Source of the DNA: Nocardioides jiangsuensis
Lineage (GTDB): Bacteria; Actinomycetota; Actinomycetes; Propionibacteriales; Nocardioidaceae
Assembly: GCF_019679455.1 (NCBI RefSeq)
Contig: NZ_JAIEZQ010000002.1
Coordinates: 868,001 to 932,000, forward strand
Direction: 5' to 3'
DNA length: 64,000 nucleotides
Part shown: positions 7,334 through 16,299 of the stretch, piece by piece
Layout of the letters: every line of letters begins with the position of its first letter
Numbering within the stretch: position 1 is the stretch's first letter
Position numbers and translations under genes: made by a program
Notes under the pieces: generated by a model
What the model saw: the letters and a program-made list of their open reading frames with translations, nothing else
Told to the model about the DNA's origin: nothing
Database searches by the model: none

Positions 7334-10269
<2,936 letters not shown>

Positions 10270-10394
10270 GACCGGGGTTCACCGACGCGGGCGGCACCCC
10301 GACCCACCATGTGCTGCGCAAGGCTCCGCAGGGCCCGGCATCCCGCTGACCGCGTAGGGGTCCCTGCGAGGCGGTCGCCGGCTGGGTCGCGAGT

Positions 10395-11402
10395 TCAGGC
10401 GCGGGTGAGCAGCCGGGCGGCGACGGGGTGCTCGCGCAGCTCCGCGGCGAGGGCCTGGACCAGCTCGTCGGTGAGCCCGGACGGGGCGGCACGGTGGCTC
10501 AGCACGTGGTCGAGCCAGGTGACCGCGTCGTCGAGGACGGTCGCGTCGTCGGCGACCAGCGCCCCGGCGACCGCGCCCACGAGGTGCGGCAGGTGGTCGG
10601 TGAGGGCCTTGCGCCACCCCGAGGTCTCCGCGACGGGGTCGTCGGAGGGGTGGGCGGCGAAGACCCGGCGACGGATGTTCGCCGCGATGGCCTCCCGCTC
10701 GGCCTGCACGATGACCGCCTCGTCGGCGCCGGGGTGCACCAGCGGGTCCGCGGGCGGTACGGCGCGGGGGAGGCCCTGCACCGCCGGAACCGCGAGCGCT
10801 CCGGTGGCGGCGTAGGCGGTGGCGCCGAGCGTCGCGGCCCGGCGGCCGGCGGGGTCGAACGCCGAGCCGCCCACGATCACCGGCGTGCCGGTGGCGCGCA
10901 CGGCCTCGATCTGGCGGCGGACCCGGGGAAGCGAGGCGCCCAGCGAGCAGGACAGCGCGACCGCGCGGGGGCCGAGCTCGTGCACGTGCCGGACCAGCTG
11001 GTCGGCCGAGGAGTTGGCGCCGAGGTAGCTCACCGGGATCCCCGCTGCGCGCAGGTGCGCGGCCACGAGCCCCGCGGGCAGCGCGTGCCACTCCTGCTCG
11101 ACGCAGGACACCACCACGGGCGCACCGGAGAGGCCGGGCGCCTCGGTGTCCGCGGTGAGCACGGCGAGGACGGACTCGCTGACCGCGGTGGCGGCGTGCT
11201 CCTGCGCGACGCTCCACGAGTCGTCGGCCCAGAGCTCGCCGACCCGGTACTGGGCGGGCGCGATCACCTGCGTCATCACGTCGAGCGGGCTCATCCCCTC
11301 GCGGCGCAGCCGCTCGACGACGGCCTGGGCCGCGCGCCGGTCGCCCCGGGAGAGCGCGTCGAGGTAGTCGGCCGAGGACCGCTCGCCGACGCCGGCGTTC
11401 AC
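10395..11402 (-). CDS. Cobalamin-binding sensor protein without DNA-binding domain
   Basis: The 335-residue protein begins with a helical B12-capping domain containing W58-x9-E68-H69, the motif that covers the upper face of adenosylcobalamin in the CarH light sensor. A Rossmann B12-binding domain follows, with E104-W-H106 as candidate lower axial ligand and SYLGANSS as nucleotide loop; Pro replaces the usual Gly of ExHxxG. The last 90 or so residues are helical and of unknown type. No HTH is present. The GTG start overlaps the phosphatase stop in GTGA, so both are one operon. I infer light- or B12-dependent control of the phosphatase or of a shared partner; methionine synthase or mutase activity is unlikely because no catalytic domain is present. 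Confidence 0.8.
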   Translation of the reverse strand: MNAGVGERSSADYLDALSRGDRRAAQAVVERLRREGMSPLDVMTQVIAPAQYRVGELWADDSWSVAQEHAATAVSESVLAVLTADTEAPGLSGAPVVVSCVEQEWHALPAGLVAAHLRAAGIPVSYLGANSSADQLVRHVHELGPRAVALSCSLGASLPRVRRQIEAVRATGTPVIVGGSAFDPAGRRAATLGATAYAATGALAVPAVQGLPRAVPPADPLVHPGADEAVIVQAEREAIAANIRRRVFAAHPSDDPVAETSGWRKALTDHLPHLVGAVAGALVADDATVLDDAVTWLDHVLSHRAAPSGLTDELVQALAAELREHPVAARLLTRA

Positions 11403-12733
11403 GGGGTGGGCGCCGAGTTCTGCACCCCGAGGATCGCGATGTCGTCGTGCGCGCGGTCGCCGAGGTGGTCGGAGAGGGCCATCGCCACGGTCTCGACGAC
11501 CGCGGTGACGTCGTTGCGGGGCCCGCTCTGGAGGACCTGGTGGAGCCGGTCCTCGCCGAACCGCTCCTCGAACCCGGGCGCCTCGAGGACGCCGTCGGTG
11601 AAGAACAGCACGGTGTCCCCGGCGTACAGCGGGACGCTGACGTCGGCGTACTCGGTGTCGTCGAACAGGCCGAGCACGGTGCCGCCGGCGCTGACCCGCT
11701 CGAGCTCGCCGGTCGTGCGGAGCACGTAGGGCTCGGGGTGGCCGGCCGCGGCCACGTCGAGCCGGAGGTCGTCGCCGGCGCGGCGGACCCGCGCGCACAC
11801 GGCGGTGACGAAGGTGCCGTCGCCCTCGGCGACCATCACGTTGTTCACCAGCCGCAGGATGCTCGCCGGGCTGCGGTCGACCAGTGCGGCCGTGCGGACC
11901 GCCTGGCGCACGCGGCCGGTCAGCACCGCGGCCTCGACGCCCTTGCCGCAGACGTCGCCGACCACCGCGGTCCAGTCGTCCTCGCCGCCGTGGATGTCGT
12001 AGAAGTCGCCGCCGAGCGCCTCGTGCTCGAAGGCGACCCGGTAGTACGCCGCGAGCTGGGCGCCCGGCATCGTCGGAAGGTTCGGCGGGGCGAGGTCGCG
12101 GCTGAGCACGCCGGCCACCCGCCGGGAGTCGGCCAGGGTGCGGGTCGCGTCGAGGGTCACCGCCACGCTGCCGGCGAGCTCCTCCAGGAAGCTCACCGCC
12201 TCCTGGTCGAAGCCGCTGCCCGCGTGCCGGGCCAGGGTGAGCGCACCGAAGCTGCGTCCTCGGGCCGCGAGGGGGATGACCAGCAGGTCGATCGGACGGA
12301 TCCCGGCGAGGGACTGCCGCAGCTCGGGGGCGGGGACCGCGGAGGCGAGCGCGCCGTCCACGTCGTCCTCGCTGCCCATCGACACCAGGGAGAGGTCGGT
12401 CAGCCCACGGGCCATCACCCGGCCCAGCGTCGACGTGCCGGCGCGCGGGGCAGGCACGGAGGCGCGCTGCACGTCGTGGCCGCGGAGGAGCGCGTGGCAG
12501 TTGAGGACACCGCCCTCGAGGACGACCAGCTGCGCCCAGTCGACGGCCTCGGGGACGAGGAGCTCCAGCACCAGGTCCACCGCGCGCTCGGCGTGCATCG
12601 AGCCGCCGACGCGGCGGGCGGCCTGGGCCAGGAACATGGCGCGGCGCGAGCTCTGGCGCAGGCGGGCCTCGACGTCCGTGGACTCCACCGGAGCCAGCAG
12701 GTCGTCGGCCGTTTCGCGGGCGGTCGAGCTCAC
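11399..12733 (-). CDS. GAF-domain PP2C (SpoIIE/RsbU-type) serine phosphatase
   Basis: The 444-residue protein has a helical N-terminus, a GAF-like sensor domain (about 35-195) and a PP2C-type phosphatase domain (about 225-440). Metal-binding acidic motifs GGDFYDI, VGDVCGKG, TDGVLEA and HDDIAIL are all present, so it should be active. Such enzymes dephosphorylate STAS anti-anti-sigma factors in partner-switching stress signalling; no anti-sigma or STAS gene is in the window. The GTG start has a good ribosome site (GGAAGG) 8 nt upstream. It is translationally coupled to the downstream B12-binding protein. Confidence 0.88.
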   Translation of the reverse strand: MSSTARETADDLLAPVESTDVEARLRQSSRRAMFLAQAARRVGGSMHAERAVDLVLELLVPEAVDWAQLVVLEGGVLNCHALLRGHDVQRASVPAPRAGTSTLGRVMARGLTDLSLVSMGSEDDVDGALASAVPAPELRQSLAGIRPIDLLVIPLAARGRSFGALTLARHAGSGFDQEAVSFLEELAGSVAVTLDATRTLADSRRVAGVLSRDLAPPNLPTMPGAQLAAYYRVAFEHEALGGDFYDIHGGEDDWTAVVGDVCGKGVEAAVLTGRVRQAVRTAALVDRSPASILRLVNNVMVAEGDGTFVTAVCARVRRAGDDLRLDVAAAGHPEPYVLRTTGELERVSAGGTVLGLFDDTEYADVSVPLYAGDTVLFFTDGVLEAPGFEERFGEDRLHQVLQSGPRNDVTAVVETVAMALSDHLGDRAHDDIAILGVQNSAPTP

Positions 12734-12926
12734 CGGACGTTTCCTTCCGATACGGAGCGGGGCATTCCTCACGATACTGGCACACCGGCCCAGAGCGGGA
12801 TCGCCGTGTCCCTCGTCCGGAGACCGGTCGTCCGCCCACACTACGCCTGAGCGGCCCGCCGGGCACCCGTCCGGCGGGCCGGTCCGGCGCCCGGGACCGG
12901 CGTCCGGCGCACGGCTCGCGGCCCCA

Positions 12927-12932
12927 TAGGAT
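12927..12932 (+). promoter_or_regulatory. -10 box of gatCAB
   Basis: TAGGAT fits TANNNT and lies about 46 nt upstream of the gatC ATG, in the 244-bp divergent region between the phosphatase gene and gatC. No convincing -35 or operator was found in the rest of that gap. Confidence 0.4.
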
Positions 12933-12977
12933 GAAGGCTTCCGAGCCATGCATCCGAACCTGGGAGCGAGCAGTCCC

Positions 12978-13277
12978 ATGCCCGACATCACCCGTGAAGA
13001 GGTGGCGCACCTCGCCGACCTCGCGCGGATCGACCTCAGCGACGCCGAGCTCGACCACCTCGCACCGCAGCTCGCGGTGATCCTCGACTCCGTGAAGTCG
13101 ATCAACGAGGTCGCCGCGGACGACGTCCCGCCCACATCGCACGCCCTGCCGCTGACCAACGTCTTCCGCGCGGACGTGGTCCGGCCCGGCCTCACCGCCG
13201 AGGAGGCGCTCGCGGGCGCGCCCGAGGTCGAGCAGCAGCGGTTCAGCGTCCCCCGGATCCTGGGGGAGGAGGCATGA
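12978..13277 (+). CDS. gatC: Asp/Glu-tRNA amidotransferase subunit C
   Basis: GatC (99 aa) clamps GatA to GatB in the amidotransferase that converts Glu-tRNA-Gln to Gln-tRNA-Gln. The typical N-terminus [19 protein letters not shown] and the late NVFRAD motif are visible. ATG 12978 has GGGAG upstream and matches the family start; an earlier ATG at 12948 would add ten untypical residues. It overlaps gatA by ATGA. Confidence 0.95.
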
Positions 13278-14800
13278 GCAGCGACCTCACCCGCCGTACC
13301 GCCGCCGAGCTCGCGGACGCCCTGGCCGCCGGCGAGACCACCTCGGTGGAGATCACCTCGGCCTACCTGGACCGGATCGCCGCCGTCGACGGCGATGTGC
13401 ACGCGTTCCTCCACGTCGACGCCGAGGGTGCCCTGGCCGCCGCGCGCGAGGCCGACGAGCGGCGCGCCGCCGGCTCCGTCCGGTCCGCCCTCGACGGCGT
13501 CCCGGTCGCGGTCAAGGACGTGCTGACCATCAAGGGCCTGCCGACCACGTGCGGCTCGAAGATCCTCGAGGGCTGGGTGCCGCCGTACGACGCCACCGTC
13601 GTCGCGCGGCTGCGGGAGGCCGGCCTGCCGATCCTCGGCAAGACCAACATGGACGAGTTCGCGATGGGCTCCTCCACCGAGCACTCCGCCTACGGACCCA
13701 CGCACAACCCGTGGGACCTCGACCGGATCCCCGGCGGCTCCGGCGGCGGGTCCGCCGCGGCGGTCGCCGCGTTCGAGGCGCCGCTGGCCATCGGCACCGA
13801 CACCGGCGGCTCGATCCGCCAGCCCGGCGCGGTCACCGGCACCGTCGGCGTGAAGCCGACCTTCGGCGGGGTCTCCCGCTTCGGCCTGGTCGCGATGGCC
13901 AACTCCCTGGACCAGGCGGGCCCGGTCACCCGCACGGTGCTCGACTCCGCGCTGCTGCACGAGGTGATCGGCGGGTACGACCCGCAGGACTCGACGTCCA
14001 TCGACCAGCCGCTGCCGGCCCTCGTGGCCGCCGCCCGCCAGGGCGCCTCCGGCGACATGTCCGGCGTCCGGGTCGGGGTCATCAAGGAGCTCGGCGGCGA
14101 CGGCTACCAGGCCGGCGTCCGCGCCCGCTTCGACGAGGCGGTCCAGCTGCTCGTCGAGGCCGGCGCCGAGGTGGTCGAGGTGTCCTGCCCGAGCTTCGTG
14201 CACGCGCTTGCGGCGTACTACCTGATCATGCCGAGCGAGGCGTCCTCGAACCTCGCCAAGTTCGACGCGATGCGCTACGGCCTGCGGGTGCTGCCCGACG
14301 GGGTGGAGAACCCGAGCGCCGAGGAGGTCATGCGGGCCACCCGCGACGCCGGCTTCGGGGACGAGGTCAAGCGCCGGATCATCCTCGGCACCTACGCGCT
14401 GTCGAGCGGCTACTACGACGCCTACTACGGGCAGGCGCAGAAGGTGCGGACGCTGATCAGCCGCGACTTCGCCGCCGCGTTCGAGCAGGCCGACGTGCTG
14501 GTCTCGCCGACCGCGCCGACCACGGCGTTCCGGATCGGGGAGAAGCTCGACGACCCGGTGGCGATGTACCTCAACGACATCGCCACCATCCCGGCCAACC
14601 TTGCGGGCGTCCCGGGCATCTCGCTGCCCAGCGGTCTCGCCGACGAGGACGGCCTCCCGGCCGGCTTCCAGATCCTCGCCCCGGCGCTCGCCGACGACCG
14701 GCTCTACCGGGTCGGCGCCGCGCTCGAGACGCTGCTGACCACGAGGTGGGGCGGGCCGCTGCTCGCCCAGGCTCCCGAGCTGAAGGAGGTCTCGGCATGA
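13274..14800 (+). CDS. gatA: Glu-tRNA(Gln) amidotransferase subunit A
   Basis: GatA is the glutaminase/amidase subunit, releasing ammonia that is channelled to GatB. The 508-residue protein has the amidase-signature triad: Lys in VAVKDVL near residue 79, then [13 protein letters not shown] and the nucleophile Ser in [12 protein letters not shown]. It lies in a tight operon, overlapping gatC by 4 bp and gatB by 4 bp. No glutaminyl-tRNA synthetase is seen in the window, which agrees with use of the indirect route. Confidence 0.97.
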
Positions 14801-16299
14801 GCACGAGCACCACGACCCGGCTGATGTCGTTCGACGAGGCCCTCGAGAAGTTCGACCCGGTGATGGGCCTCGAGGTCCACGTCGAGCTGAACACCGCCTC
14901 CAAGATGTTCTGCGGCTGCCCGACCGAGTTCGGCGCGGAGCCGAACACCCAGGTCTGCCCGGTCTGCCTCGGCCTGCCCGGCGCGATGCCGGTGGTCAAC
15001 GAGAAGGCCGTCGAGTCCGCGATGCGCATCGGCCTCGCGCTCAACTGCCAGATCGCCGAGTGGTGCCGCTTCGCGCGGAAGAACTACTTCTATCCGGACA
15101 TGCCGAAGAACTTCCAGACCTCGCAGTACGACGAGCCGATCGCCTTCGACGGCTGGACCGAGGTCGAGGTGGACGGGGAGACCTTCCGCGTCGACATCGA
15201 GCGCGCGCACATGGAGGAGGACACCGGTAAGTCGCTGCACGTGGGCACCTCCGGCCGGATCCACGGCGCCGACTACTCGCTGGTCGACTACAACCGCGCC
15301 GGCATCCCGCTGATCGAGATCGTCACCAAGCCCATCGTCGGCACCGGGGCGAAGGCCCCGCTGGTGGCCAAGGCGTACGTCGCCCAGCTGCGCGAGCTGC
15401 TGCTGGGGCTCGGTGTGTCCGACGTCCGGATGGAGCAGGGCTCGCTGCGCTGCGACGTGAACCTCTCGCTGCGCCCGGTCGGCCAGGAGGCGTTCGGCAC
15501 CCGCACCGAGACCAAGAACGTCAACTCGCTGCGGTCGGTGGAGCGCTCGGTGCGCTACGAGATCGGCCGCCAGGGGGCGCTGCTCGAGGACGGCGGCACC
15601 GTCGTCCAGGAGACCCGGCACTGGCACGAGGACACCGGCGTCACCACGTCGGGCCGTGAGAAGTCCGACGCCGAGGACTACCGCTACTTCCCGGAGCCCG
15701 ACCTGGTCCCGATCGCCCCGTCCCGGGAGTGGGTCGAGGAGCTGCGCGGGTCGCTGCCCGAGCCGCCGCGCGAGCACCGCGCCCGGCTCCAGGCCGAGTG
15801 GGGCTTCAGCGACCTCGAGATGCGCGACACCGTGGGCGCCGGCGCGCTGCTGCTCGTGGAGCAGACCATCGCCGCGGGTGCCTCGCCGGCGGCGGCGCGC
15901 AAGTGGTGGCTCTCCGACATGGCCCGCCGCGCCAACGAGCAGGGTGTCGACCTCGCCGACCTGCCGGTCACCCCGGCCGACGTGGCCCGGGTCCAGGCGC
16001 TCGTCGACGAGGGCAAGATCAACGACAAGCTGGCCCGTCAGGTCTTCGACGGCGTGCTCGCCGGGGAGGGCACCCCCGACGAGGTCGTCGCCGCCCGCGG
16101 CCTGGCCGTGGTCTCCGACGAGGGGGCGCTGTCCGCGGCGGTGGACCGCGCCATCGAGGCGAACCCCGACGTGGCGGACAAGATCCGCGACGGCAAGGTC
16201 GCCGCGGCCGGTGCGCTGATCGGCGCGGTGATGAAGGAGATGCGCGGGCAGGCCGACGCCGGCCGCGTGCGCGAGCTGATCATCGAGAAGCTGTCCTGA
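14797..16299 (+). CDS. gatB: Asp/Glu-tRNA(Asn/Gln) amidotransferase subunit B
   Basis: GatB (500 aa) binds misacylated tRNA and activates the glutamyl group with ATP. The family signature [11 protein letters not shown], the zinc-site cysteines (CGC, CPVCLG) and the signature [15 protein letters not shown] are near the N-terminus; the C-terminal YqeY-like helical tail runs to the end. ATG 14797 overlaps the gatA stop in ATGA and has AAGGAGG upstream, which fixes the start; the frame is open far upstream inside gatA without meaning. Confidence 0.97.

Follow-up and report, generated by a model that had tools for sequence, protein, structure and literature searches.

The window, a 64,000-nucleotide stretch of DNA, carries a two-gene unit in which the gene for a photocobilin-type B12 sensor lies directly behind the gene for its own dedicated PP2C phosphatase. 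Pairing of this kind is common in the actinomycete genomes examined. The partner phosphatases form a group that is near-exclusive to photocobilins, and the pair is co-inherited. The window protein's own branch seems, judging by its residues, to have changed or lost the second, bile-pigment-based light sensor of SasPcob, the standalone photocobilin of Saccharothrix syringae. The coordinates given by the first-pass annotation were exact, as was its GTGA overlap of four shared bases, and the features of the locus are as follows.

10395 to 11402, minus strand: photocobilin-type B12 protein gene (GTG at 11402, TGA at 10395, 335 aa)
11157 to 11369, minus strand: four-helix-bundle part of the B12 module (PF02607, Pfam), residues 12-82, with W58 and E68-H69
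10779 to 11117, minus strand: Rossmann-type B12-binding domain (PF02310, Pfam), residues 96-208, with E104-x-H106
10398 to 10739, minus strand: predicted C-terminal globin-like (photoglobin) domain, about residues 222-335, from the 8J2W/8J2X/8J2Y alignment, the helical model and structural comparisons
10593 to 10595, minus strand: His270 codon, aligned with Asp270 of SasPcob, which contacts biliverdin there (alignment with SasPcob)
10515 to 10517, minus strand: Trp296 codon, kept as in SasPcob (same alignment)
11399 to 12733, minus strand: GAF-PP2C (SpoIIE-catalytic, RsbU/RsbP-like) phosphatase gene (GTG at 12733, TGA at 11399, 444 aa)
12152 to 12343, minus strand: GAF part matched by PF01590 (Pfam), residues 131-194
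11423 to 11983, minus strand: PP2C catalytic domain (PF07228), residues 251-437, from Pfam and Asp positions
11399 to 11402, minus strand: GTGA stop-start overlap, joining the B12 gene start and the phosphatase gene stop

The pair is flanked by ligA and gatC, both on the opposite strand, and it occupies the same ligA/gatC site in two further genomes, G003 (locus L124) and G435 (L060). At this site in G272 (L062), the photocobilin gene is present and a PP2C gene was not detected. No Rfam RNA reached the gathering threshold near the pair (8000-15000), and no sigma-70-type promoter was found in 12600-13000, a result that means little for this organism.

The first-pass annotation had read the B12 protein as a CarH-like photosensor without its HTH domain, and its residue-level observations are correct. 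W58, E68 and H69 form the motif W58-x9-E68-H69, the E-x-H motif is E104-W105-H106, and Pfam listed no HTH family at E values up to 1. The CarH label itself has to be replaced. Both PF02607 and PF02310 exceeded their own Pfam cut-offs in the 335-aa protein, and in a search of solved-structure sequences the photocobilin entries 8J2X/8J2W (1e-47, residues 12-328) and 8J2Y (1e-32, residues 13-333) matched nearly end to end, whereas CarH entries reached only 1e-13 to 1e-14 over residues 12-194. The NCBIfam CarH model NF052513 gave 66 bits against a cut-off of 400. A predicted model built from three sequences (mean pLDDT 75.6, pTM 0.56) had 8J2W, 8J2X and 8J2Y as its top structural comparisons in both Foldseek and VIA-align (Z 22.5-22.9 in the latter); the accompanying rmsd of about 9 A suggests that domain placement in this model is unreliable. 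A CarH protein that has lost its HTH was considered and ruled out, since the photocobilin hits are much stronger and run along the whole protein. On these alignments, standalone photocobilin is the better description of the window protein, and its C-terminal extension corresponds to the globin-like domain in which SasPcob holds its biliverdin. This extension had been described as helical and roughly 90 residues long; it is helical in the predicted model, and its length is nearer 110 residues (about 222-335). The protein has two of the features that mark photocobilins in the broad sense that includes AbPcob, namely a CarH-like B12 module with W-x-EH and E/D-x-H and an attached globin-like domain; a photocobilin would in addition bind AdoCbl and biliverdin and change its structure or oligomer state in light. 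It has neither the MerR-type HTH of CarH repressors nor the Asp270 of SasPcob-type biliverdin-binding photocobilins, the residue being His270.

As far as its catalytic domain shows, the assignment of the upstream gene to the RsbU/SpoIIE-type phosphatases stands. The PF07228 catalytic domain scored 143 bits, and all six positions examined in the PP2C domain for Asp have this residue; we take these positions to have the roles assigned to them in the metal-binding motifs. Of the GAF models, PF13185 and PF01590 exceeded their own Pfam cut-offs, as did PF07228, and a third, PF13492, remained below its own. Rv1364c (3KE6) was the best match among solved-structure sequences (7.3e-17). The predicted PP2C model, with a mean pLDDT of 47.5, was too poor for a structure search.

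Homologues were collected from 58 relatives and 394 genomes of the class, with flanks of up to about 4 kb on each side. In the class-wide searches no more than 4 or 5 candidates were scored in each genome, so copy counts are lower bounds. The first-pass annotation had let its reading depend on the two genes not being rare neighbours in relatives, and the same pair was indeed found in other genomes: a same-strand PP2C gene lies upstream of 62 of the 74 photocobilin-type genes (66 genomes), directly in 60 cases and ahead of a second tandem copy in two. Paired photocobilins are spread over 21 of 27 genera, 11 of 15 families and 56 of 66 genomes. The approximate gap between the genes is at most 30 nt in 48 of the 60 direct pairs and exceeds 150 nt in three, and no fusion of photocobilin and PP2C in one reading frame was flagged in the loci examined. 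Within the 20-row branch that contains the window protein, 16 are paired. Twelve of the 74 have no upstream PP2C, seven of them in the window's own family, and for one of the 12 (L119) the contig gives 45 nt upstream and pairing cannot be judged. In genus g49 (L085, L091), one PP2C gene is followed by two tandem photocobilin genes and then a STAS gene; the tandem copies possibly make up a two-subunit sensor.

The association is specific to photocobilins. A PP2C gene occurs within 1.5 kb of 25 of 28 photocobilin loci. The same distance held none for 11 other B12 hits (L019-L029), which reach only the B12 domain and were kept outside the 74 as a control, none for five other B12 loci of the same genome, three for 30 heme-oxygenase loci and four for 30 same-genome HATPase loci. 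Seen from the phosphatase side, the window PP2C (P0002) has matches at E <= 1e-50 in at least 21 places in 20 of the 394 genomes, window included. The neighbour check covered matches at this threshold, and all 21 listed places adjoin a photocobilin, 20 of which are in the list and one of which (G348) is split over two frames. On a PP2C tree, 61 partner rows and 20 others (13 from the window genome and seven from fetched flanks) are separated by two label changes, where shuffled labels gave a mean of 18 and none of 500 shuffles was as low as two. One window-genome PP2C on a long branch (L136) falls inside the partner group on this tree, which, like the photocobilin tree below, is a quick tree without bootstrap.

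Family identities of photocobilins and PP2Cs are correlated as well (r = 0.91 over 60 pairs), a value to which species kinship contributes. Three genomes (G301, G060 and G341) hold both photocobilin branches, and in these each of the six PP2Cs resembles the partners of its own branch more closely. Such matched branches, the correlated identities and the near-exclusive PP2C group speak against mere genomic co-inheritance, in which the genes would be co-transcribed, the proteins would not touch and the photocobilin would act on some other target. That alternative, which could draw on the 12 unpaired copies and on the cyclase regulated by the photocobilin of AbDPcob (PMC10979010), appears improbable to us.

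The remaining parts of a partner switch were sought in the flanks of 74 loci, consisting of the 72 loci of the 74 genes and, in addition, L213 and L214; since L214 repeats L122 in a longer form, one locus is counted twice in the STAS and HATPase counts. A STAS gene lies directly downstream on the same strand within 500 nt in 31 of these loci, any STAS gene occurs in 45 and a HATPase gene in 19. In the two loci of the window genus that were examined, a search out to 4 kb from the pair turned up neither a STAS nor a HATPase gene. The window genome has 14 SpoIIE-type domains, 8 STAS domains and 23 HATPase_c_2 hits above cut-off, and it encodes a PF01923 adenosyltransferase. Choosing a STAS target by its closest own-genome relative was tried, and the best hits scattered, chiefly among L175, L176 and L180, so that none is named. 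STAS, SpoIIE and PP2C proteins are among the predicted network partners of SasPcob given in the photocobilin paper (PMC10979010).

What the first-pass annotation saw in this pair is real and confirmed, and its interpretation, that light or B12 state controls a partner-switch cascade, is partly supported. Our preferred reading, which we judge equally likely to prove right or wrong, is that the pair is the light-input module of a partner-switching cascade, with a B12-only photocobilin switching a PP2C that acts on an unlinked STAS protein. In the dark, adenosylcobalamin (AdoCbl) would be bound with His106 as lower ligand and its adenosyl group at W58, and a dimer contact would run through E68-H69. 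Light would break the Co-C bond and loosen the dimer, and the B12 protein would then switch the phosphatase of the overlapping gene by direct contact. The phosphatase would in turn act on at least one STAS anti-anti-sigma protein whose gene lies elsewhere in the genome, and remove its phosphate. In the window branch the globin would no longer hold biliverdin well and would serve as a structural and contact domain, leaving the response to B12 alone. From AdoCbl binding and photochemistry through to direct contact, the direction of the effect and the STAS target, these are steps that we infer. Contact of this sort has a precedent, as a separate cyclase domain becomes more active through protein contact with light-state AbPcob or holo-SasPcob (PMC10979010).

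The bilin site was compared across 76 aligned rows (the 74 homologues, SasPcob and AbPcob) in SasPcob numbering. In SasPcob, Asp270 contacts biliverdin rings A-C and Trp296 contacts ring D (PMC10979010). Position 270 is Asp in 52 rows and another residue in 24; the window protein has His270 and Trp296. Twenty-one of the 24 non-Asp270 rows fall on one side of one branch of the quick tree (SH-aLRT 81, not starred), in which the window's 10-row set (SH-aLRT 99) and another 10-row set (SH-aLRT 100) are found. The 20-row branch used here is the window's and leaves out four rows that also lack Asp270 (AbPcob, L079, L116 and L121), and the 46 core rows exclude six with Asp270 (L117, L119, L122, L123, L129 and L130). 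D270, F277, Y283, F290 and F293 are each present in at least 89% of core rows and in none of the 20 branch rows, while W296 and R304 are kept in all 20. Across the branch, position 270 is H in five rows, T in five, A in four, Q in three and other residues in the rest, a pattern that resembles relaxed constraint more than the fixation of a new ligand.

Poor biliverdin binding in the window branch may be read from this pattern, with two qualifications. Core and branch rows share 21% identity in the globin part and 40% in the B12 part, and three otherwise conserved B12-part positions (47, 80 and 113) are changed in all 20 branch rows, so the change extends beyond the bilin pocket; with a faster-diverging globin and altered B12-part residues, the pocket residues could have gone without loss of the bilin. 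Moreover, AbPcob has His at 270, yet its biliverdin site is about 20% occupied and it responds to red light (PMC10979010), which counts against our preferred reading. A full two-chromophore photocobilin, with AdoCbl and biliverdin, other residues standing in for Asp270 and a response to both red and green light, would fit this partial binding by AbPcob as well as the retained globin domain and W296. We regard it as decidedly unlikely, given the five residues lost throughout the branch, the variable position 270 and a search of the window genome for PF01126 and PF10615 that gave no match to either family. Among the 66 genomes, PF01126 heme oxygenase is present in 27 of the 48 that have an Asp270 copy and in 6 of the 18 that have none, a weak difference that is confounded by kinship; these counts did not support using heme oxygenase to tell bilin-binding copies cleanly from others. 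In genus g66, three heme oxygenase genes (L195, L197 and L204) have a PP2C gene within 1.5 kb, and the photocobilins of this genus keep Asp270.

The central B12-site residues are kept in the 20-row branch (W61 and E71 in 20/20, H72 in 18/20, H108 in 19/20), and His137 is kept in one of the 20. Light-responsive B12 domains have a published signature of GxxW, EH, GxxH and GxxxP (PMC11796333, SignatureFinder). According to the same source, the GxxH glycine of a solved relative binds a corrin amide, and its GxxxP proline is in contact with the adenosyl group of the adjacent monomer. All four elements are present in SasPcob, AbPcob and 39 of the 46 core rows, and in none of the 20 branch rows. The window protein retains GxxW and EH together with the GxxH histidine and falls outside the signature, with Gln103 and Ser132 in place of the Gly of GxxH and the Pro of GxxxP that SasPcob and AbPcob have. 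In the branch as a whole, the Gly is missing from 19 of 20 rows and the Pro from 15 of 20.

With two signature elements missing, the case for light sensing in this branch is weaker than W-x9-EH alone would suggest, and this result lowered our confidence in the light-input reading from somewhat favourable to evenly balanced. It also favours the main rival, that the protein is a sensor of B12 status and not of light, in which AdoCbl occupancy would set the phosphatase and light would be incidental. In AbDPcob, binding of AdoCbl was by itself enough to reduce the fused cyclase's activity (PMC10979010). We consider this rival unlikely, as the adenosyl site and dimer contact retain W and E throughout the branch and H in 18 of 20 rows.

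Two unpaired copies of genus g7 (L087 and L067) show decay of the B12-site motif, with H72 replaced in both and the lower-ligand His108 changed to Gln in L087. Proteins of Chromatiales in L009 (5365-6636) and L010 (4603-5685) have a C-terminal B12 module behind a different N-terminal region, perhaps in the reversed globin-B12 order described for some photocobilins.

The light-input reading can be taken a step further. The branch may have dropped its bilin antenna, reworked the AdoCbl site and turned the globin into the phosphatase contact surface, yielding a B12-only partner switch; loss of the bilin may also have reversed the response, with light turning the phosphatase off rather than on. 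A reversal may follow from bilin loss because SasPcob without biliverdin acted with opposite sign on a separate test enzyme (PMC10979010). This extended version is doubtful.

A co-inherited phosphatase in 21 of 27 sampled genera is a candidate target of standalone photocobilins, whose function is called less clear in PMC10979010, and it is directly testable. If the reading is true, B12 light sensing would be placed upstream of sigma-factor partner switching. The Asp270-less branch, which would be missed by the published light-signature filter (PMC11796333), offers a natural way to probe the contribution of the second chromophore and to learn which residues are truly required for sensing light. 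Links between photocobilins, SpoIIE and STAS proteins, and generally light control of such cascades, have already been suggested in the same photocobilin paper (PMC10979010). In the literature as far as it was accessible, a search for B12 photoreceptors in connection with phosphatases or partner switching led only to that paper and an optogenetics review. No description of the near-exclusive PP2C group, of how frequent the pair is or of the signature-poor branch without Asp270 was found in the accessible portion of the photocobilin literature.

Among the closest known systems, SasPcob (8J2W, 8J2X) resembles the window protein in its full-length match, standalone architecture, W/EH and ExH motifs and Trp296. 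The two share 46% identity in the B12 part and 21% in the globin part; Asp270, His137 and Phe293 of SasPcob are His, Gln and Ala in the window protein, and the Gly of GxxH and Pro of GxxxP of SasPcob are both replaced. AbDPcob, with its sensor part in 8J2Y, has the same two sensor domains and His at 270, but is fused to a diguanylate cyclase, whereas the window protein is paired with a phosphatase; AbPcob sits in another part of the photocobilin tree. Photoglobins have been placed near the bilin-binding globins in a PNAS paper on the latter. CarH (5C8D and relatives) shares the B12 light module with W-x9-EH, while the window protein has an extra globin and no DNA-binding domain was found in it. 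In Bacillus, LOV and PAS sensors act upstream of sigma-factor partner switching, and Rv1364c combines PAS with fused kinase and STAS domains. RsbU/RsbP-type PP2Cs and Rv1364c (3KE6) have the same PP2C catalytic domain as the window phosphatase, which differs from them in its GAF domain and in having a separate B12 partner.
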